DNA from: Fodinibius salsisoli
GTDB lineage: Bacteria; Bacteroidota; Rhodothermia; Balneolales; Balneolaceae
Length of the DNA: 64,000 nucleotides
NCBI RefSeq assembly: GCF_026229185.1
Contig: NZ_JAGGJA010000009.1
Location: 124,001-188,000, forward strand
Direction of reading: 5' to 3'
Notes under the pieces: generated by a model
Database searches by the model: none
What the model saw: the letters and a program-made list of their open reading frames with translations, nothing else
What the model was told of the DNA's origin: nothing
Translations under genes and position numbers: made by a program
In this document: piece by piece, positions 27,350 through 37,599 of the stretch
How the letters are laid out: each line of letters begins with the position of its first letter
How positions within the stretch are numbered: position 1 is the stretch's first letter

Positions 27350-27503
27350 AAAGCATCAATGTTCAGGTTTTAAAAAAATGGTACTTATAGAGTTGCTATA
27401 TTAATTGTCAGTTTTGATATTCTTTTATATTTAGGTCATCATTGAATTGATGGTCTTCCTATTACATCTACAAGGTTCATTACCTCATTATTGATAAAAC
27501 AAA

Positions 27504-27590
27504 AGATAGTGGTTGTGAATACTGTAAGTTGATTCTGAACATAGTTTCCTGAAAAGAAGCCCACTATCTGAGAAGGTGGTGGGTTTTGCT
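27504..27590 (+). promoter_or_regulatory. transcription attenuator (antiterminator/terminator) before the first rhodanese gene
   Basis: A 10-bp hairpin, CCCACTATCT at 27560-27569 and AGGTGGTGGG at 27574-27583 with a GAGA tetraloop and two G-U pairs, is followed by TTTT. Its left arm is also fully complementary to AGATAGTGG at 27504-27512 (9 bp), so the two helices exclude each other. This is the standard attenuator design and mirrors the one at 32129-32213 before the paralogous gene. No Cys-rich leader peptide was found; a 14-residue ORF at 27450-27494 ends 9 nt before the first arm but is only a guess. The rest of 27350-27665 holds no gene. Confidence 0.7.
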
Positions 27591-27665
27591 ATTTTAATAT
27601 CCTCTGCCTTTCCCCAGACAAGATTTGTCCATGAAGTACAAATCATAATCTAAAATCAAAATACT

Positions 27666-28508
27666 ATGTCTAATATCATATCAAATCATCATGTGTTGGT
27701 TACCACCGATTGGGCCGAAGACCATTTAGATGATGAAGATGTCCGGTTTGTGGAAGTAGATGTTAATACGGATGCCTACGACTCGAACCACATTCCCGGG
27801 GCAGTAGGATGGAACTGGAAGACCCAGCTGCAGGATCAGCTCCGGCGAACCATCGCTTCCAAAGAGAATTTTGAAAAGCTTCTTCAGCATTCCGGCATCA
27901 CCAACGATACAACTATCGTGCTCTATGGTGATAATAACAACTGGTTTGCCGCCTGGGCCTATTGGTTATTAAAATATTACGGTCATGAGGATGTAAGAAT
28001 ACTGGATGGCGGCCGCAAGAAATGGGAAACAGAGAATCGCGAGTTGACGACCGATGTCGTTGATTACGATACTGCCGATTACACCATCTCAGGTGAAAAT
28101 AAAAAATATCGGGCCTTCCGAGATGATATTGAACCTAAACTTAATAGTTCTGACTTTGGTCTCGTGGATGTTCGGTCGCCTGACGAATTTACGGGTAAGA
28201 TTCTGGCCCCTCCGGGATTGAATGAACTTTCGCAGCGCCCCGGCCATATTCCGGGAGCTTCCAACATACCGTGGTCTAAGGCAGTCAATGACGATGGCAC
28301 ATTCAAAAGCGAAGAGGAGTTAAAAAAGCTCTATGAAGGGGAAGGGATCACCCCGGATAAGGAGATCATTGCCTATTGTCGCATTGGTGAACGTTCCGCT
28401 CATTCTTGGTTTGTCCTCAATGAGCTGTTGGAATACCCGAATGTGCGCAATTATGATGGTTCATGGACCGAATGGGGCAACCTGATCGATGCACCCATAG
28501 AGCGATAA
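27666..28508 (+). CDS. thiosulfate/3-mercaptopyruvate-type sulfurtransferase (tandem rhodanese)
   Basis: A 280-residue protein of two rhodanese domains; the N-terminal one (about 10-135) lacks an active Cys and the C-terminal one (about 155-275) has the persulfide-forming Cys238 in C-R-I-G-E-R-S-A-H. It moves sulfane sulfur from thiosulfate or mercaptopyruvate to a thiol acceptor. It is closely similar along its whole length to the protein at 32306-33148, so a recent duplication is likely. The neighbouring sulfur-carrier genes suggest it supplies sulfur to that system. Confidence 0.92.
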   Translation: MSNIISNHHVLVTTDWAEDHLDDEDVRFVEVDVNTDAYDSNHIPGAVGWNWKTQLQDQLRRTIASKENFEKLLQHSGITNDTTIVLYGDNNNWFAAWAYWLLKYYGHEDVRILDGGRKKWETENRELTTDVVDYDTADYTISGENKKYRAFRDDIEPKLNSSDFGLVDVRSPDEFTGKILAPPGLNELSQRPGHIPGASNIPWSKAVNDDGTFKSEEELKKLYEGEGITPDKEIIAYCRIGERSAHSWFVLNELLEYPNVRNYDGSWTEWGNLIDAPIER

Positions 28509-29871: not shown

Positions 29872-30147
29872 TCAACAACCGCCGGCAATAGCGGGTACAA
29901 TGCTAACTTCCGTATCTTCTTTCAGCTCAATTGAGCCATTTTCAGCAGGACTTACTTCCTCATTGCCGATGTACAGTTTGATGTACGAACGAATGTTGCC
30001 ATTGTCGTCCAGTAAATTTTGCTTTACATCCGGATACTTCTCAATAAACTGCTCTATTGCAGCTGACAGGGTATCCTGCTGAGTCTCAAACTGTCTGTTT
30101 TGATCCGTGTACTTACGCAACGGAGTGGGTATAATTATTCGTGCCAT
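29872..30147 (-). CDS. cysO: MoaD/ThiS-family sulfur-carrier protein, CysO-like, ending in Gly-Gly-Cys
   Basis: A 91-residue ubiquitin-fold carrier. It ends ...I-A-G-G-C, so one extra Cys follows the Gly-Gly that must be exposed before adenylation. Family precedent (QbsE, which ends G-G-C-F and is trimmed by a JAMM peptidase) suggests the neighbouring Mec-type protease removes it. The thiocarboxylated carrier then donates sulfide to a CysM-type synthase, and the same protease frees the cysteine. All four partners are adjacent here. Confidence 0.9.
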   Translation of the reverse strand: MARIIIPTPLRKYTDQNRQFETQQDTLSAAIEQFIEKYPDVKQNLLDDNGNIRSYIKLYIGNEEVSPAENGSIELKEDTEVSIVPAIAGGC

Positions 30148-30612: not shown

Positions 30613-31560
30613 TTATTTAAACAGTTGGTTAGTAACTTCGCCGTATTTGCTGCTATCATCAGGGAAGAGCGTGACAATAGTTCCTTCTTCCAGCTGACGG
30701 GCCAATCTCAATGCTCCAGCCAGGTTAGCAGCCGAAGAGGGGCTGATGAGCAATCCTTCCTTTTGAGCTGCCAATTTCATTGTCTCATGGGCTTCTTCGG
30801 TGCTCACGGTTTGCATGACATCCGCTACAGAATCATCAAAAATAGCCGGGGTATGAGCCGTTTCAAGGTGTTTCCAGCCTTCAAGCCCGTGCATCGCAAT
30901 GTCGGGCTGTAAGGCGATAAGCTCTATTTCTTGTTTATATGTTTTCAAAAATCGTCCGGTGCCGGTAAAGGTTCCCGTTGTACCCAGGCCGGCAATAAAA
31001 TGAGTGACATCATAATTGGTCTGATCCAATATTTCAGGCCCTGTTGTGTCGTAATGAGCCTTCCAGTTACTTGGATTGCTGTACTGATCAGCATAGTAGT
31101 ATTGGCTCGGATTTTGCTCATAAATTTCCTTCGCTACTTCCTGGGCTTCATCCGTACCGCCGGCGCGTGAGGTCAGTTTCAAGTTGACGTCGAGCGAGCG
31201 TAGAATTTGTTTTCGCTCTTCCGAAGCATTTTCCGGGAGGCATAGCGTTACTGGGATTCCGAGTGCCGCTCCGATGTGTGCATATGCAATGCCCGTATTG
31301 CCACTACTGGCATCCAGCAGATGTTTTCCTTCCGTAAGCTCTCCTCTTTCAATAGCATCCTGGATAATCCGATAAGCAGCTCGTGTCTTAACACTTCCAC
31401 CAAATTGTTGCCATTCCAGCTTGGCAAACACTTTTACATCTTCTTTAATGTCCAGGTTCTGAATGGGATACAGGGGGGTATTCCCGACAAAGGAGTCCAG
31501 TTTAGTGCTTTTTTTAGTAAGCGGTGATTCTGGTTGTGAAATGATATCGAGCGTTTTCAT
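30613..31560 (-). CDS. cysM: PLP-dependent cysteine synthase, CysM-like
   Basis: A 315-residue fold-type II PLP enzyme. The PLP lysine is Lys58 in G-G-S-V-K-T-R; the substrate loop S-S-G-N-T-G is near 85 and the phosphate-binding G-L-G-T-T-G-T-F-T-G near 190. The gene neighbours (mec, cysO, moeZ) indicate it uses a thiocarboxylated carrier protein as sulfur donor. The acceptor, O-acetylserine or O-phosphoserine, cannot be decided by eye. It is first in its operon, preceded by the poly-Cys leader ORF at 31681-31788. Confidence 0.9.
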   Translation of the reverse strand: MKTLDIISQPESPLTKKSTKLDSFVGNTPLYPIQNLDIKEDVKVFAKLEWQQFGGSVKTRAAYRIIQDAIERGELTEGKHLLDASSGNTGIAYAHIGAALGIPVTLCLPENASEERKQILRSLDVNLKLTSRAGGTDEAQEVAKEIYEQNPSQYYYADQYSNPSNWKAHYDTTGPEILDQTNYDVTHFIAGLGTTGTFTGTGRFLKTYKQEIELIALQPDIAMHGLEGWKHLETAHTPAIFDDSVADVMQTVSTEEAHETMKLAAQKEGLLISPSSAANLAGALRLARQLEEGTIVTLFPDDSSKYGEVTNQLFK

Positions 31561-31599
31561 AATAATTTAGTAATAGCAAGAGTTTAAGAAGGATAGATG

Positions 31600-31633
31600 A
31601 AAAACAGACGAACAGAGCAGTAAACTCACGTTC
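31600..31633 (-). terminator. possible weak attenuator terminator before cysM
   Basis: On the minus strand GAACG-U-GAG (31633-31625) can pair with CUC-U-GUUC (31617-31610), with one bulge, one G-U pair and a 7-nt loop. A five-U run at 31604-31600 follows after 5 nt. The gap before the U run makes it weak. Confidence 0.35.
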
Positions 31634-31638
31634 AAACT

Positions 31639-31680
31639 GTTACCGGTAAGAAATGAATGTAAAAGTTAAAGTCCGGTAAC
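31639..31680 (-). promoter_or_regulatory. hairpin abutting the poly-Cys leader stop codon
   Basis: A perfect 8-bp inverted repeat: GTTACCGG (31680-31673 on minus) begins directly after the leader stop codon and pairs with CCGGTAAC (31646-31639). A ribosome ending the leader would cover the first arm; one stalled early in the Cys run would not. This suits a leader-peptide switch. The downstream alternative helix is less clear than on the plus side. Confidence 0.6.
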
Positions 31681-31788
31681 TTAGCTACAACAACAGCAAC
31701 AACACGTACAAGAGGTGTACTTGCACAGAAGGGAGAGCGATATGTTAAATGCTGTTGTCAAATTACTTGAAATTGTGTTGCGATACAT
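31681..31788 (-). CDS. poly-cysteine leader peptide of the cysM-mec-cysO-moeZ operon
   Basis: A 35-residue ORF read on the minus strand from ATG at 31788. It ends L-L-C-K-Y-T-S-C-T-C-C-C-C-C-C-S, that is eight Cys in the last 14 residues, six of them consecutive, just before the stop. Such a run has no plausible structural role but would stall ribosomes when Cys-tRNA is scarce. It lies 120 nt upstream of cysM, with a hairpin starting at its stop codon. No strong Shine-Dalgarno is visible, as for most genes here. Too short for standard gene callers. Confidence 0.78.
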   Translation of the reverse strand: MYRNTISSNLTTAFNISLSLLCKYTSCTCCCCCCS

Positions 31789-31840
31789 CAGGGGTATCGG
31801 ATAATTGATTTAAAAGTTAAGGAAAATTTTGATAAATCCA

Positions 31841-31846
31841 ATTATA
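31841..31846 (-). promoter_or_regulatory. possible -10 box for the cysM operon
   Basis: TATAAT on the minus strand (31846-31841) lies about 52 nt upstream of the leader ORF. The -35 region is a poor match, so this rests mainly on the perfect hexamer and its position. Confidence 0.4.
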
Positions 31847-31961
31847 AAATCTTTCTTTTCCATTTGATCTGATTATGTAATGAAAAAAGCTCCAAAAGCG
31901 TTCCCGGAAAATGGGTTTCTGAACAGCCCAAAAAGAAAAAAATATTTTTTTGAAATTTTAG

Positions 31962-31991
31962 TTGACTTCCATGCGATTAATTTATTATTGT
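31962..31991 (+). promoter_or_regulatory. possible promoter of the plus-strand sulfur operon
   Basis: TTGACT at 31962-31967 and TATTGT at 31986-31991 with an 18-bp spacer lie about 50 nt upstream of the Cys/Met leader ORF. A tract rich in A/T precedes it. Moderate match to the sigma-70 consensus. Confidence 0.4.
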
Positions 31992-32039
31992 ATAAGCGCT
32001 GATGACGAACGGTCATTTAATCAACAAAAATTTAGTGTA

Positions 32040-32156
32040 ATGAATTTTCATAATCAGATCCATAACTTCCTTGTCATGCCAGTTGCCATGTGCTGTATGT
32101 GTATGTGTTGTTGTATGCATATGCCGGGAGGTAGTGGAACTGATATGAGAAAATAA
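32040..32156 (+). CDS. Cys/Met-rich leader peptide of the sulfite-reduction operon
   Basis: A 38-residue ORF whose centre reads M-C-C-M-C-M-C-C-C-M-H-M (Cys codons at 32091-32114). It ends 19 nt before a strong terminator. Codons 30-33 (G-G-S-G) contain the antiterminator arm at 32129-32137. A ribosome stalled on the last Cys codon would cover to about 32127, leaving that arm free; one proceeding to the stop would disrupt it. A longer in-frame ATG at 31962 overlaps the putative promoter, so 32040 is preferred. Products downstream make sulfide for cysteine synthesis. Confidence 0.82.
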   Translation: MNFHNQIHNFLVMPVAMCCMCMCCCMHMPGGSGTDMRK

Positions 32157-32190
32157 GTTTTAAAAACTTGATCATAAAAGCCCGCTGCCT
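32129..32190 (+). promoter_or_regulatory. antiterminator helix of the Cys attenuator
   Basis: AGGTAGTGG at 32129-32137, inside the leader ORF, pairs over all 9 positions (two G-U) with CCGCTGCCT at 32182-32190. The second segment is most of the left arm of the terminator at 32176-32213. The same 9-bp design (AGATAGTGG with CCACTATCT) precedes the paralogous rhodanese at 27666. Confidence 0.72.
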
Positions 32191-32213
32191 GTTACAGGAA
32201 GCGGGCTTTTTTT
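32176..32213 (+). terminator. attenuator terminator before the sulfite-reduction operon
   Basis: AAAAGCCCGCT at 32176-32186 pairs with AGCGGGCTTTT at 32200-32210. An inner CCTG/CAGG helix closes a 3-nt loop and a T7 run ends at 32213. It lies between the leader ORF and the first structural gene, so it would block the operon unless relieved. Confidence 0.92.
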
Positions 32214-32231
32214 GTTGATAATGCCTGCCAA

Positions 32232-32252
32232 CCTGTGTCAGGAAGCGGCTTT
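32232..32252 (+). repeat. imperfect second copy of the terminator right arm
   Basis: CCTGTGTCAGGAAGCGGCTTT closely repeats the loop and right arm of the terminator 44 bp upstream, with small changes and no T run. It could compete for the same left arm or be a decayed duplicate. Confidence 0.5.
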
Positions 32253-32305
32253 GTGAGAATTATTCAAATAATCTAATCTAAACACAAAGCAAAACAAATA
32301 GAATA

Positions 32306-33148
32306 ATGCCTGACGTAATAACAAATAAAAAAGTACTTGTAACCACTGATTGGGCTGCCAATCATCTCGAAGATGAAGCAGTGCGGTTTGTAGAAGTAGA
32401 TGTTGATACCGAATCGTATGACTCGGGACATATTCCGGGATCTATAGGATGGAACTGGAAAACCCAGCTGCAGGATCAACTGCGAAGAACGATTTCAACT
32501 AAAGAAGATTTTGAAACCCTACTGCAGGAATCCGGCGTAAGTGAAGATACCACTATTGTGCTCTACGGAGATAACAATAATTGGTTTGCCGCCTGGGCGT
32601 ATTGGCTGTTGAAGTATTATGGCCACGAAGATGTTAAAATTCTGGATGGTGGACGTAAAAAATGGATCGCTGAAGATCGTGAATTGACCACCGATGCGGC
32701 CGACTATGGCACCACTGATTATACCATTTCCGGTGAGAAGAAAGAGTACAGAGCTTTCCGATCCGATATTTCTGATCGTCTGAATGATGAAGACTTTGGC
32801 TTGGTAGATGTACGATCTCCGGATGAATTTACGGGTAAGATTTTGGCCCCTCCAGGACTGAATGAACTTTCACAACGACCAGGTCACATCCCCGGTGCTT
32901 CAAACATTCCGTGGTCTAAGACGGTGAATGAAGACGGTACCTTTAAGACTGAAGAAGAAATAAAGGCTATTTATGAGGCTGAAGGAATAACTCCTGATAA
33001 AGACATTGTCTCGTACTGCCGAATTGGTGAACGTTCTGCTCACTCTTGGTTCGTCTTAAATGAACTGCTTGAATTCCCAAGCGTACGCAATTACGACGGC
33101 TCCTGGACAGAGTGGGGTAACCTGATCGACGCTCCAATTGAAAAGTAA
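32306..33148 (+). CDS. thiosulfate/3-mercaptopyruvate-type sulfurtransferase (tandem rhodanese), second copy
   Basis: A 280-residue two-domain rhodanese with active Cys238 in C-R-I-G-E-R-S-A-H. It matches the protein at 27666-28508 with the same length and most residues identical. It is the first structural gene of the operon and precedes sulfite reductase by 31 bp. It probably supplies or detoxifies sulfane sulfur during assimilation. Transcription seems to be controlled by the Cys-leader attenuator just upstream. Confidence 0.92.
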   Translation: MPDVITNKKVLVTTDWAANHLEDEAVRFVEVDVDTESYDSGHIPGSIGWNWKTQLQDQLRRTISTKEDFETLLQESGVSEDTTIVLYGDNNNWFAAWAYWLLKYYGHEDVKILDGGRKKWIAEDRELTTDAADYGTTDYTISGEKKEYRAFRSDISDRLNDEDFGLVDVRSPDEFTGKILAPPGLNELSQRPGHIPGASNIPWSKTVNEDGTFKTEEEIKAIYEAEGITPDKDIVSYCRIGERSAHSWFVLNELLEFPSVRNYDGSWTEWGNLIDAPIEK

Positions 33149-33179: not shown

Positions 33180-34862
33180 ATGGGTTCTCGAAGAAAACGA
33201 ACAAAAAGTAAAATTGAAGTCATAAAGGAGAACAGCGATAATCTTCGCGGGCCCCTTGCTGATGAAGTGGGAAATGACGAGTCCCACTTCAGCAAGGACG
33301 CCATCCAGGTGCTCAAATTCCATGGCACCTACCAGCAAGATGATCGTGATCTCCGAGAAGGTCGTAACCGACATTATATGTTCATGATCCGCGGGCGCAT
33401 TCCTGCCGGGAAGATGACCACCGATCAATATTTAGCAATAGATGATATTGCCGATGAATACGCTGACGGAACGTTGCGTGTAACTACACGACAGGCCTTT
33501 CAGCTGCACGGCATAATCAAAGATGAGCTAAAAACAACACTACAGGAAATTAATAATTCGCTGATTACGACACTTGGAGCATGTGGTGATATTGTCCGAA
33601 ATGTAATGGCAACGCCAGCCCCTGATATCGATGGGCGGCAGTCCAAAGTGCAAGACTTCGCCGATGACCTTTCAGATATCTTATTGCCGGCCAGTAAAGC
33701 CTATCACGAAATTTGGCTCAATGGCGACAAGGTGTATTCCGGCAAGGAGGAGGTCAAAGAAAAAGAGCCATTATATGGGCACAGCTATCTGCCACGAAAA
33801 TTTAAGGTGGGCATTGCCTTGCCTAAAGATAACAGCGTAGATCTCTACACCCAGGATATCGGCCTCGTAGCACTCTTTGATGATGAGAATGAAATCAGAG
33901 GCTTTAATGTAGTGGTCGGTGGCGGCATGGGTATGAACCATCGCAAAGAAAGTACCTTTCCCCGTTTGGGCGATCATCTGGGCTATGTTTCCAAAGATAA
34001 AGTCGTGGATGTAGTCAAGAGTATTATTGGTATTCAGCGCGACCATGGCGAACGAGTAAATCGTAAGCAGGCGCGGATGAAATATCTAATTCATGATTGG
34101 GGACTCGAAAAGTTTGAGAAAGAGTTGATTAGTCGTCTAGGCTTTGAACTCGAGCCTTATGAAGAGCTCCCTGATTTTGATCTGGATCTGTACCTGGGCT
34201 GGAATCAGCAGTCCGATGGCAACTGGTTTTTAGGACTTTCTATCGAAAACGGTCGAATTCAGGATAACCAGGAATTTCAGCTCAAGACGGCACTCCGCGA
34301 AGTAGTTTCCAAGTTTGGAACAGGCGTTCGTTTGACGGCCAATCACAATGTGTTACTTACTAATGTAGCTGAAGAAGACAAAGAAAAGATTGAAGCCATT
34401 TTTGATAAGTATGGTGTGCTCCTGGATGATGAATTATCCAATGCCATAAAATACTCTATGGCTTGCCCGGCGCTGCCCACCTGTGGTCTCGCTATTACCG
34501 AATCGGAGCGGGCTCTACCAGATATTGTCCGTGATCTCGACGGCGTGCTCAATGAGCTGGGTTTGGAAGATGAAAAGCTGTCGATCCGAATGACCGGCTG
34601 CCCCAACGGCTGTACGCGACCCTACGTGGCCGATATCGGTTTCGTTGGTCGTTCGCTGGATAAATATACCATCTTTATCGGTGGTGATGCTGCCGGTACC
34701 CGGTTAAACTCCAAATACAAGGATCTGGTTGAACGTAAGGACTTGGTGGAAGAAGTACGTCCACTGTTAGAGCAGTACAAAAGTGACCGAAGCAACAGCG
34801 AATCATTCAGCGATTATTGGAATCGTGTAGGCCTTGAAGAACCAGAAGCAGTCTCTGCATAA
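33180..34862 (+). CDS. assimilatory sulfite reductase, siroheme/4Fe-4S (ferredoxin-dependent type likely)
   Basis: A 560-residue duplicated nitrite/sulfite-reductase fold. The siroheme-[4Fe-4S] ligands are Cys429 and Cys435 (A-C-P-A-L-P-T-C-G) and Cys474 and Cys478 (G-C-P-N-G-C), the classical spacing. It reduces sulfite to sulfide. The operon lacks a CysJ flavoprotein but ends with a ferredoxin, so ferredoxin is the likely electron donor. Genes for siroheme synthesis lie just downstream, which favours sulfite or nitrite reduction; APS reductase in the same operon favours sulfite. Confidence 0.9.
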   Translation: MGSRRKRTKSKIEVIKENSDNLRGPLADEVGNDESHFSKDAIQVLKFHGTYQQDDRDLREGRNRHYMFMIRGRIPAGKMTTDQYLAIDDIADEYADGTLRVTTRQAFQLHGIIKDELKTTLQEINNSLITTLGACGDIVRNVMATPAPDIDGRQSKVQDFADDLSDILLPASKAYHEIWLNGDKVYSGKEEVKEKEPLYGHSYLPRKFKVGIALPKDNSVDLYTQDIGLVALFDDENEIRGFNVVVGGGMGMNHRKESTFPRLGDHLGYVSKDKVVDVVKSIIGIQRDHGERVNRKQARMKYLIHDWGLEKFEKELISRLGFELEPYEELPDFDLDLYLGWNQQSDGNWFLGLSIENGRIQDNQEFQLKTALREVVSKFGTGVRLTANHNVLLTNVAEEDKEKIEAIFDKYGVLLDDELSNAIKYSMACPALPTCGLAITESERALPDIVRDLDGVLNELGLEDEKLSIRMTGCPNGCTRPYVADIGFVGRSLDKYTIFIGGDAAGTRLNSKYKDLVERKDLVEEVRPLLEQYKSDRSNSESFSDYWNRVGLEEPEAVSA

Positions 34863-34880
34863 CTACTATTGAATCATATT

Positions 34881-35693
34881 ATGAGTGTCGAAGCATACCA
34901 TAACTATGGCAAAGTTTACCTCGTGGGCGCAGGCCCCGGCGACCCCGAATTAATTACGGTGAAGGGAGCCCGAATCCTTAGTGAGGCAGATACTATCGTC
35001 TATGATCGCCTGGCTAACCCGGAGCTGTTGTCAATGACTTCCGAAAAATCGGAGCATATTTACGTTGGCAAACGTCCGGATAAGCCTTCGGTCTCGCAAG
35101 AACAAATCAATCATATTCTTGTCACCAAAGCCGGTGAGGGGAAAACGATAGCCCGCCTTAAAGGTGGGGATCCGTTTGTCTTTGGCCGTGGGGGCGAAGA
35201 GTGCGAAGTACTTCGGTCTAAAGAGATACCGTATGAAGTAGTGCCCGGCATCAGCAGCTCGTTAGCAGCACCTGCTTATGCCGGCATTCCGGTAACCCAT
35301 CGAAAGGTTGCACGTTCATTTACGGTGGTAACCGGCCATACCATCAAAAATACGGAAACATTTACCAACTGGGAGCACTTAGTCCATTCGGACACCTTAG
35401 TTGTATTAATGGGAACACGAAGTCTCCCCCAAATTACTGAAAAGTTAATCAAGCATGGAAAAGATCCGCAGACACCGGTTGGAATTGTAGAAAAGGCCAG
35501 CTACTCATCACAAAGAACAACGCTTGGAACGTTGGGAACGATTGTTGATGAAGCTACGGATATATCTTCGCCGGGAACTATTGTGATTGGTGAATTGGCT
35601 GCTAAAAGCCATGAGTTGGCTTGGTTCCAGACGGAGGATGCTAAAGAAACTACGGTATCAAATTCGAGATTAAGGACGCAATTTGTCGGCTAA
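34881..35693 (+). CDS. cobA: uroporphyrinogen-III C-methyltransferase (SUMT)
   Basis: A 270-residue SAM-dependent methyltransferase with V-Y-L-V-G-A-G-P-G-D-P-E-L-I-T near the start, V-Y-D-R-L-A near 38, L-K-G-G-D-P-F-V-F-G-R-G-G-E-E near 90 and P-V-T-H-R near 133. It makes precorrin-2, the first step to siroheme. ATG at 34881 is preferred to the TTG four codons upstream. It supplies the cofactor for the adjacent reductase together with the dehydrogenase at 36478. Confidence 0.94.
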   Translation: MSVEAYHNYGKVYLVGAGPGDPELITVKGARILSEADTIVYDRLANPELLSMTSEKSEHIYVGKRPDKPSVSQEQINHILVTKAGEGKTIARLKGGDPFVFGRGGEECEVLRSKEIPYEVVPGISSSLAAPAYAGIPVTHRKVARSFTVVTGHTIKNTETFTNWEHLVHSDTLVVLMGTRSLPQITEKLIKHGKDPQTPVGIVEKASYSSQRTTLGTLGTIVDEATDISSPGTIVIGELAAKSHELAWFQTEDAKETTVSNSRLRTQFVG

Positions 35694-35705: not shown

Positions 35706-36455
35706 ATGCAGAAGCTTAAAGACGAAATCATTCCAAATCAGAAACTTTCCAAGGAACTGCTAGATAACCTCAACAAGCAGTTCGAAGTGGCCGGACCTGA
35801 TCAGGTACTCCTGTGGGGATTCCGTACGTTCGGAACCGACATGGTACTTGGTACAGGTTTTGGTCCTTCGGGAATGTTCTTGATTTATCGTCTTTGGGAG
35901 CTGGGGCTTGAGATTCCTATCTTCTATCTGGATACGCTTCTTCTGTTTGAGGAAACCTATGAATTACGCGACCGGATTGAAGAACGATTCGATATTGACA
36001 TCACTCGTGTAAGCTCAGATCTTTCGTTAGAAGACCAGGCCGAAAAGTTTGGCGATAAACTCTGGGAAACCAACCCCAATCGATGCTGCCATTTACGCAA
36101 GGTTTTACCGCTGCGAAACTATCTTTCGGATAAAAAGGCTTGGATAACAGGGGTGCGACGGAGCCAGTCAGAACGGCGTCGGGATACTGATTTTGTAGAA
36201 TGGGATCCTGAAAATGAGGTAATTAAGATTAATCCATTAGCCAATTGGACCGGTGACCAGGTGTGGGGTTATATCCGTGGAAAAGGATTGCCCTACAATC
36301 CACTGCATGATGAAGGTTACCCAAGTATTGGCTGTATACCCTGTACACAGCCCGTAGATAGCGAGGAACCTGAAGATGAACGATTAGGACGCTGGCAAGG
36401 GTTGGAGAAGACGGAGTGTGGAATTCATCTTTCAACCCAGAAAAACGGGAGTTAA
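35706..36455 (+). CDS. cysH: adenylyl-sulfate (APS) reductase, CysH family
   Basis: A 249-residue PP-loop reductase. Paired Cys127-Cys128 and C-x2-C at 210-213 are the [4Fe-4S] ligands that mark APS-reducing enzymes rather than the PAPS-only E. coli type. The catalytic Cys238 is in E-C-G-I-H. It reduces APS to sulfite with thioredoxin. No ATP sulfurylase gene is in the window, so sulfate activation is encoded elsewhere. Confidence 0.93.
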   Translation: MQKLKDEIIPNQKLSKELLDNLNKQFEVAGPDQVLLWGFRTFGTDMVLGTGFGPSGMFLIYRLWELGLEIPIFYLDTLLLFEETYELRDRIEERFDIDITRVSSDLSLEDQAEKFGDKLWETNPNRCCHLRKVLPLRNYLSDKKAWITGVRRSQSERRRDTDFVEWDPENEVIKINPLANWTGDQVWGYIRGKGLPYNPLHDEGYPSIGCIPCTQPVDSEEPEDERLGRWQGLEKTECGIHLSTQKNGS

Positions 36456-36477
36456 TACGACAAACAGTTTTAAGAAA

Positions 36478-37164
36478 ATGAGTAATACCATGGAAATGTT
36501 TCCAATCTATTTACGCCGACTTGATGAGCGTAAAACGGTTTTGGTAGGCGGTGATGATGAAGCCGAGGAGAAGGTAGAGCAGCTGTTAGAACGAAATGCT
36601 AACCTAACAGTCATTAGTCCACATCTAACAGAAAAGATGTGGCGTTGGGTTCGGGAGAGCCGCTTTAAGTGGATCCCGCGGAATTATAAACAAGGGGACC
36701 TGGAAGGAGCTTTTATGGCTATTGTGGCCGAGTATGAAGGCGACATTAATAAAAAGGTGTACCAGGAAGCCAAAGAGCGGAATATCCTCGTCAATGTGAT
36801 GGATGATCTGCCAAACGCTAATTTTGCATTTGGTTCTATCGTACGGCGTGGCCCCCTGACTATTTCTATTTCAACCAGTGGAGCAGCTCCTGCTCTTTCC
36901 GTTCGGTTACGTGAACGGTTCGAAGAAGAATTTGGCCCGGAATACGGCCAGTTCCTGGAGTTTATGCAGAAGCTCAGAAAACCAATGGCAAAATATCATG
37001 AAAAATTTTCTGACCGTAAAGATCTTTGGTACAAGTTGATTGACTCTGAAGTACTAAGTTTCTTTCGGCAGGGAAAAATAAAGGAAGCGTACCACAAAAC
37101 AGCTGAAATTGTAGGTGAAAAGGTGGTTGGAGATGCCTTGCCTACCGAACAAGTAACCGCATAG
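36478..37164 (+). CDS. precorrin-2 dehydrogenase/sirohydrochlorin ferrochelatase-like (Met8/CysG-N type)
   Basis: A 228-residue protein, starting at ATG 36478; a longer start overlaps cysH and is unlikely. The NAD-binding start V-L-V-G-G-D-D-E-A-E-E-K is followed by A-N-F-A-F-G-S-I-V-R-R-G-P-L-T-I-S-I-S-T-S-G-A-A-P-A-L, typical of the family. The usual G-G-G is here G-G-D. It completes siroheme synthesis from precorrin-2. Confidence 0.9.
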   Translation: MSNTMEMFPIYLRRLDERKTVLVGGDDEAEEKVEQLLERNANLTVISPHLTEKMWRWVRESRFKWIPRNYKQGDLEGAFMAIVAEYEGDINKKVYQEAKERNILVNVMDDLPNANFAFGSIVRRGPLTISISTSGAAPALSVRLRERFEEEFGPEYGQFLEFMQKLRKPMAKYHEKFSDRKDLWYKLIDSEVLSFFRQGKIKEAYHKTAEIVGEKVVGDALPTEQVTA

Positions 37165-37260: not shown

Positions 37261-37599
37261 ATGGCATACGTAGTTGCTGAACCATGCATTAACTGTAAAT
37301 ATACCCATTGCGCCTCCGTTTGTCCGGTAGATGCATTTCGTGAGGGTCCAAACTTTTTAGCGATTGATCCTTTTGAATGCATCGATTGTGATGCCTGCGT
37401 GCCGGAGTGTCCGGTAGAGGCCATTTATCCGGATGATGAACTTCCGCTGGAGTGGGAGCATTATATAGATTTAAATGATCGGCTTTCCGAGCAGTGGATG
37501 GACCACCACGTTAGAGAAACAACAGAAGCGATGGAAGACGCTGACGAGTGGGCCGAAAAGGAAGATAAAGATGAGCTTTTAGTAGAAAGCTGGAATTAA
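37261..37599 (+). CDS. 7Fe/8Fe-type bacterial ferredoxin
   Basis: A 112-residue FdxA-like protein with Cys motifs C-I-N-C-K-Y-T-H-C-A-S-V-C-P and C-I-D-C-D-A-C-V-P-E-C-P in the first 60 residues, then an acidic C-terminal extension. The first motif's longer spacing suggests one 3Fe-4S plus one 4Fe-4S cluster. It is the likely electron donor for the sulfite reductase in the same cluster, though FdxA also serves other pathways. Confidence 0.92.
   Translation: MAYVVAEPCINCKYTHCASVCPVDAFREGPNFLAIDPFECIDCDACVPECPVEAIYPDDELPLEWEHYIDLNDRLSEQWMDHHVRETTEAMEDADEWAEKEDKDELLVESWN

Follow-up and report, generated by a model that had tools for sequence, protein, structure and literature searches.

The question raised by this locus is what a short, cysteine-rich reading frame followed by a transcription terminator is doing in front of genes that lead from sulfate to sulfide. 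In the window, which is the whole stretch of 64,000 nucleotides of Fodinibius salsisoli DNA that was analysed, a leader ORF of 38 codons and a stop can be read directly (MNFHNQIHNFLVMPVAMCCMCMCCCMHMPGGSGTDMRK, 32040-32156, forward strand), with a counterpart in 17 of 17 aligned loci. It contains a run of Cys and Met codons (M C C M C M C C C M H M, 32088-32123, forward strand), the proposed sensor, and its six Cys codons all fall inside 32091-32114. Further along the same strand lies segment 2, the putative antiterminator arm (AGGTAGTGG, 32129-32137), which pairs at all nine positions, two of them as G-U, with segment 3 (CCGCTGCCT, 32182-32190), the left arm of an intrinsic terminator consisting of a stem and a T7 tract (32176-32213). 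The left arm of this terminator begins 19 nt past the end of the leader stop at 32156, the T7 tract occupies 32207-32213, and 4 of the 13 consensus pairs show compensatory changes among the aligned loci. The preliminary description had reported the ORF, the Cys/Met run, the T7 terminator 19 nt past the stop and the 9-nt pairing, and it is correct at every coordinate; it had also placed the leader before a sulfite-reduction operon, and the gene directly 3' is indeed the first gene of that operon, encoding a rhodanese-like sulfurtransferase (32306-33148). It is followed, all on the forward strand, by genes for an assimilatory sulfite reductase hemoprotein (33180-34862, NF010029 above cut-off), uroporphyrinogen-III C-methyltransferase (CobA, 34869-35693), phosphoadenylyl-sulfate reductase (CysH, 35706-36455), a siroheme synthase N-terminal domain of the CysG-N type (36418-37164, an ORF whose start may be further in) and a ferredoxin (37261-37599).

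The trp, his and leu attenuators of Proteobacteria are built from a leader ORF with control codons and from two competing helices, an antiterminator (2:3) and a terminator (3:4). With high confidence, the stretch 32040-32213 can be considered a classical ribosome-mediated transcription attenuator of the same general kind, governing the rhodanese/sulfite reductase/CobA/CysH/CysG/ferredoxin operon. It resembles the systems named above in having control codons in the leader, the 2:3 versus 3:4 alternative and an intrinsic terminator before the operon, and differs in that the Balneolales leader uses Cys plus Met codons and that segment 1 does not seem to be general. As the Cys/Met leader and the terminator stand before genes that carry sulfate to sulfide, the translation speed of those codons very probably sets the operon on or off. 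In the proposed sequence of events, RNA polymerase would start near 32000 and a ribosome would translate the leader. With ample charged Cys-tRNA (and, presumably, Met-tRNA) the ribosome would cross the Cys/Met run and segment 2 to reach the stop codon, whereupon the terminator (3:4) would fold and transcription would end near 32213. If charged tRNA were short, the ribosome would stall in the run with its 3' edge just before segment 2, and the freed segment 2 could pair with segment 3 ahead of the synthesis of segment 4, allowing read-through into the sulfide-producing genes. What has been observed for the attenuator is its anatomy, its conservation, a few compensatory changes, the fact that it occurs together with the operon, and how it folds in models; from the sequence we infer that the leader is translated, that ribosomes stall on it, that transcription reads through, and which tRNAs are sensed.

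Some parts of the leader transcript can be placed with varying precision. A sigma-70-like promoter is predicted at 31962-31991 on the forward strand (TTGACT-18-TATTGT, 9 of 12 consensus matches), a level of match at which the region holds four promoter-like sites against 3.0 expected in shuffles; the best predicted pairs in the 17 loci, taken as best of a scan without a control at 16-18 nt spacing, lie 27-78 nt 5' of the leader ATG with 8-10 of 12 matches each. No Shine-Dalgarno sequence was seen by eye upstream of the leader ATG. Between the terminator and the rhodanese gene, just 5' of the start codon, there is a possible stem (GCTTTGTG...CACAAAGC, 32248-32290, forward strand), and exact GCTTTGTG and CACAAAG are both present in 9 of the 17 loci. 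The predicted fold of the 181-nt leader has an energy of -64.1 kcal/mol (z -6.57), which none of 200 shuffles reached, and an Rfam search of the whole window at gathering score returned no match.

The distribution of the leader was followed through its neighbouring gene. Used as the query, the rhodanese protein had matches in 57 of 97 related genomes. From 30 loci that were retrieved, 25 upstream regions were examined (those of L106-L110 being left out). The leader stands directly upstream in 17 of the 25, namely in all 16 at 74% identity or more and in L098, from another family, at 49%; it was not found in the roughly 250 nt or more read upstream of the other eight (L097, L099-L105). The 17 loci come from two families of the order, and include Gracilimonas mengyeensis DSM 21985 (L002/L086). 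In every one there is an ORF, 30-39 codons long, in which 4-7 codons are for Cys and 2-7, not counting the start, for Met, together with a segment 2 that reads GGTAGTGG or a variant and is complementary to segment 3, and a terminator. The gap between the last Cys codon before segment 2 and segment 2 itself is 9-18 nt in 17 of 17 loci, every one of the 87 Cys codons upstream of segment 2 is at least 9 nt away from it, and the distance from segment 2 to the stop codon is 7-22 nt (16 nt in 11 loci).

This conservation bears on whether it is the peptide or the RNA that matters. One might suppose that the product of the ORF is a small Cys/Met peptide that binds metal or has a regulatory role, and that the terminator merely ends its gene; clusters of Cys and Met can bind soft metals, and the composition is conserved among the leaders. 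However, the positions of the Cys codons differ from leader to leader, and the linked genes that could be named are mostly sulfur genes. Moreover, the peptide encoded by segment 2 is Gly-Ser-Gly or nearly so in 14 of the 17 loci and Val-Val in L085, L086 and L089, because segment 2 is read in another frame there; as the RNA of segment 2 stays constant across two reading frames, it is the RNA and not the peptide that is conserved. A metal-binding or regulatory peptide is accordingly given a very low probability. Much the same low standing applies to the suggestion that the ribosome is halted by arrest of the nascent chain and not by tRNA shortage: leader peptides that act in this manner exist in other bacteria, but no fixed residue pattern past composition could be seen by eye in 34 sulfur-assimilation leaders.

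The proposed attenuator relies on the pairing of segment 2 with segment 3. In alignment A1, where the segment 2 letters of L090, L091, L095 and L096 were picked after reading the sequences, not blindly, and segment 3 of L090 was set by hand, 95.4% of 153 cells hold standard pairs, against 27.5-61.2% when one arm is slid by 1-3 columns. In three of the nine pairs, both partners have changed in at least one sequence (L091, GATAGCGG/CCGCTATC; L096, GGCAGTGG/CCGCTGCC), four are invariant, the ninth is broken in 5 of 17 loci, and L090 and L095 have one further mismatch each. Among 500 letter shuffles, 25 to 129 reached the observed values of the count measures, 44 reached the percentage paired and 28 the covariation score. 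The covariation is modest, suggestive and short of strong against letter shuffles, as might be expected because segment 3 must also pair with segment 4. The alignment across relatives that the preliminary description had proposed came out in its favour, as Cys codons, terminator and 2:3 pairing are all kept.

Folding models, which use a ribosome footprint of generally known size, provide a second view of the switch. To model the stall, the 3' edge of the ribosome was set 9 nt beyond the last Cys codon, and the transcript was cut short ahead of segment 4; the probability of the 2:3 helix was then 1.00 for the window leader and 0.96 on average over the 17 loci, against 0.00 and 0.41, respectively, with no ribosome. 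In its ribosome-free fold the window leader holds segment 2 upstream at 0.86, with segment 1 (32060-32071, forward strand, from the fold models) as the partner. A ribosome placed on the stop codon allows the terminator to form (0.98 mean over 17 loci), and in many loci such a ribosome should cover segment 2 only partly. Shuffling the RNA between the ribosome and segment 3 lowered the upstream pairing of segment 3 from 0.98 to 0.49. The antiterminator is exclusive with the terminator, and its 5' arm comes right after the control codons. In 16 of 17 loci the terminator is favoured at equilibrium once segment 4 is present, even with a stalled ribosome, and the switch must therefore be kinetic. 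The preliminary description had held that a stall at the last Cys codon would leave the antiterminator arm just exposed, a geometry to which both the spacing in all 17 loci and the modelled stalled and ribosome-free folds lend support. A general segment-1 helix was not supported: the duplex outdoes its shuffles in no more than 4 of the 17 loci (L082, L086, L093, L094), the window leader not among them, and in three of these (L086, L093, L094), as also in L083, L087 and L092, the 2:3 helix still dominates without a ribosome.

A covariance model built from the 17 leaders (R1) permitted a wider search. R1 matched 21 of 92 genomes of the family at E <1e-16, 16 of them in the model and 5 new, and a full-length sulfite reductase (E <1e-200) was found in 20 family genomes, every one of which has an R1 match at this level (15 in the model, 5 outside it). 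The remaining one of the 21, G009, has the leader and rhodanese and no match to sulfite reductase, and in G022, also of the family, an R1 match of 5.2e-12 precedes cobA and no full-length sulfite reductase was matched. The reductase is also present in four genomes of family f3, each with an R1 match (E 2.6e-7 to 1.3e-6) about 95-233 nt 5' of the matched frame; all four leaders, when read, have 2-3 Cys codons with Met, followed by GGTGGTGG or a GGTGGTGG-like RNA and a terminator, and are therefore poorer in Cys. At 1e-3, R1 matched 91 of 244 genomes of the class, 6 of the 91 being outside the order, where the best match (2.2e-5) spans the terminator part only; because at E values up to 1e-3 R1 also picks up ordinary terminators and their antisense copies, the matches counted are those that are strong or that were read one by one. 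In one locus (L161, G108:C247), the leader and terminator are kept, most of the rhodanese gene that would come next appears to be lost, and sulfite reductase follows.

These results also address the notion that the terminator simply belongs to some unrelated transcript and lies by accident beside a Cys-rich ORF. Taken as a single sequence, the leader exceeds chance only modestly in this respect: when 31561-32305 was shuffled 1000 times with its dinucleotides preserved, short ORFs (65 codons or fewer, either strand, ATG, GTG or TTG starts) with at least six Cys codons arose in 30 of the shuffles, and with at least eight, the count in a second, divergent leader discussed below, in none. The conservation across 17 loci is decisive for the reality of the leader arrangement, and together with the invariable co-occurrence with the operon in the family it leaves an accidental juxtaposition hardly credible.

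With R1 and a second model, R2, more Cys/Met leaders were found before terminators. Reading of 42 R1-matched loci yielded 25 Cys/Met leaders (two of them repeats of counted loci), 11 of trp type, including L165, which was so placed by its downstream gene as its leader is cut off, and 6 that were neither. Named from translations and not from family searches, as were the trpE-like and L292 genes mentioned below, the genes in other genomes that have Cys/Met leaders include sulfate-permease-like (SLC13) genes (L172-L175, L177, L178, L187), cobA (L162, L176, L188, L189) and a cysH-like gene (L166); such leaders also precede sulfite reductase in L190 and the f3 loci. In L196 the leader stands before a gene for the dimethylsulfone monooxygenase SfnG (TIGR04021 over cut-off), with a like gene behind L292, and in L179, L181, L182, L185 and L285 before genes for SusC/TonB receptors. 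L179 (G000:C11:467399-467549, also L259 and L281) comes from the same genome as the window; its leader has many Met codons, only 2 Cys and a terminator, and is followed by SusC, a SusD-like gene and two M14 carboxypeptidases. In L284 (G011:C44), a Cys/Met leader and terminator precede a gene of about 243 codons to which no name was assigned. Trp-codon leaders occur before trpE-like genes (L163, L168-L170, L183, L184, L186, L192-L194), most with a GGCAGTGG-like segment; since R1 also finds these leaders of like build, a single style of attenuator serves several amino acids in this group. A search of the genome for Cys/Met-run patterns gave seven matches, two in the known leader and none of the other five leader-like before a terminator; a search for TGYTGYTGYTGY gave 39 places, 3 of them inside the leader of cysM.

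The latter is the second, divergent leader of the window. On the reverse strand, the gene for a cysM-type cysteine synthase (30613-31560) is preceded by a poly-Cys leader, (M)TTAFNISLSLLCKYTSCTCCCCCCS, at 31681-31761 if a TTG start is assumed (an ATG further up would give 31681-31788), which ends CCCCCCS. A poly-Cys leader, with nine consecutive Cys in L243, stands before 15 of 15 cysM orthologues that have at least 58% identity, and two more distant synthases (L245, L246) are without one; in G008, the poly-Cys leader is present and there is no match to sulfite reductase. Directly 3' of the stop is a hairpin (GTTACCGG...CCGGTAAC, 31639-31680, reverse strand). A post-stop hairpin appears in 10 of 14 single folds, with a C-rich, G-poor spacer, and RNAalifold found no pairs and no consensus structure in 12 cysM-type leaders, so the evidence for a hairpin there comes only from the single folds. 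No T-tract terminator was seen in the 14 post-stop stretches. With its Cys run near the stop codon and no intrinsic terminator in sight, the cysM leader fits the poly-Cys leaders of the Actinobacterial type, and we tentatively favour Rho-dependent or translation-level control for it. The Cys-plus-Met leader and the Cys-only leader thus form a divergent pair in one intergenic region, their starts about 250-280 nt apart.

Divergent to the operon there are, beside the cysM-type gene, genes for a JAB protease, a ThiS/MoaD-like carrier (29872-30147, reverse strand) and a MoeZ-like protein, a set that we take to resemble the CysO-CysM-Mec route of Actinobacteria. The carrier, encoded between the JAB protease and the MoeZ-like gene, ends in GGC. 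Carriers of the ThiS/MoaD type usually end in GG, one residue shorter, and the JAB protease may trim the GGC end. Elsewhere in the window, on the forward strand, a decayed copy of the attenuator (27470-27604, R1 E 1.2e-7) lies 5' of a paralogous rhodanese gene (27666-28508); as read by eye, GATAGTGG/CCACTATC and a terminator-like hairpin are kept, and the Cys run and an in-frame ATG are missing, which makes it a natural loss-of-sensor copy.

Which amino acids are sensed can be approached through codon content. The start codons, which are excluded from the counts, were picked after reading the sequences, not blindly, and L166 and three f3 leaders were left out. On this basis, and with the residues of related leaders not being independent in Fisher tests, the 17 model leaders, with 597 residues in all, contain 16.2% Cys and 15.2% Met; for 4 SusC leaders (155 residues) the values are 14.2% and 21.3%, for 14 cysM leaders (377 residues) 27.3% and 1.3%, and for 9 trp leaders (197 residues) 0.5% and 2.5%. 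The corresponding values are 16.8% and 14.6% of 536 residues in 17 further leaders, which are not wholly independent for Met content because R1 was built from Cys- and Met-bearing leaders. That the leader is a sensor of Cys supply is likely. It is conceivable, if rather doubtful, that Cys is all that it senses and that the Met codons amount to unstructured U/G-rich RNA or to fast spacers between Cys codons; Cys is the best-known end product of the operon, and the published Cys leaders are, in the excerpted text of the two sources, described by Cys codons alone (PMC1262725, PMC8632094). Against this stands the Met content of both sets of sulfur leaders, 15% versus 1.3% in cysM-type and 2.5% in trp leaders, which strengthens the suggestion, made in the preliminary description, that Met-tRNA may also be read. 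In addition, 73 of the 86 Met codons upstream of segment 2 lie at a distance of 9-45 nt, at which a stalled ribosome would not cover it. The genome also carries the O-acetylhomoserine sulfhydrylase gene metY (over cut-off) and an adjacent metX-like gene (below cut-off), and sulfide should therefore feed Met directly, a further point against sensing of Cys alone; a Met leader was sought 5' of metY, and an Rfam SAM riboswitch about 650 nt upstream was found instead. Joint sensing of Met by the leader of the sulfide operon, whose product goes into both amino acids, is therefore probable, the compositions suggesting that the sulfide operon responds to Cys and Met and cysM to Cys alone.

On balance, we lean towards a ribosome-sensed sulfur regulon in the Balneolales. 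In such a regulon, Cys-plus-Met attenuators would control sulfate/sulfite assimilation, SfnG and the SusC/SusD-plus-carboxypeptidase loci, the operon of the cysM-CysO type would respond to Cys only, and the choice of codons would encode the product supplied. A shortage of either sulfur amino acid would then act through separate Cys-plus-Met attenuators to turn on sulfate/sulfite assimilation, dimethylsulfone cleavage and peptide scavenging.

The polycysteine leaderless short ORFs of mycobacteria, ascribed to Canestrari 2020, reportedly provide each Cys operon with its own poly-Cys leader and a joint response; the mechanism is said to be the release of a sequestered ribosome-binding site, with Cys only. 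By this account, that system is like the present one in that several Cys operons each have a leader of their own, and unlike it in that the Balneolales leader has an intrinsic terminator and Met codons besides Cys. Short ORFs with runs of Cys codons have been described before cys operons of Mycobacterium and P. acnes and before cbs of B. longum; conserved terminator hairpins were lacking there and Rho was suggested (PMC1262725). The sulfite-reduction leader of the Balneolales differs from these in its intrinsic terminator and antiterminator, and the cysM leader, with poly-Cys at the stop and no T-tract terminator seen, comes nearer to them. The uORFC-8-2 motif before cysS of Rhodobacterales combines a Cys uORF with an intrinsic terminator, and attenuation was proposed; it has two tandem Cys codons, belongs to cysS and to alphaproteobacteria, and is described there with no mention of Met (PMC8632094). 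The MetL leader before metBA of Campylobacter jejuni, with 3 Met codons and a short terminated RNA, is, as described, devoted to Met only and to methionine biosynthesis, and comes from another phylum (PMC3847290). Within the Bacteroidota, leader-peptide attenuation has been proposed in Flavobacterium (PMC9723704), and leader-like sORFs have been reported in Bacteroides (PMC7366714). Among the papers listed in the literature search, no Balneolota attenuator and no mixed Cys/Met control codons were recognised. The statement in the preliminary description that Cys leaders are known from Actinobacteria hence stands, and has to be widened to cysS of Rhodobacterales (PMC1262725, PMC8632094), while for its other half, the want of a described case in this group, the matches listed gave no Balneolota example.

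Cys-leader attenuation is thus known elsewhere, and what is new is the probable existence of a sulfur regulon sensed by the ribosome in the Balneolales. The divergent pair formed by a Cys-plus-Met and a Cys-only leader offers a clean test of whether leader codons set the specificity of an operon. If the proposal is true, the ribosome itself would sense the sulfur supply in this group, with one leader reading two amino acids, and a single shared signal would tie together sulfate reduction, sulfone use and peptide scavenging. Such leaders would then also mark genes for the acquisition of sulfur, for example SusC/SusD loci of unknown substrate.
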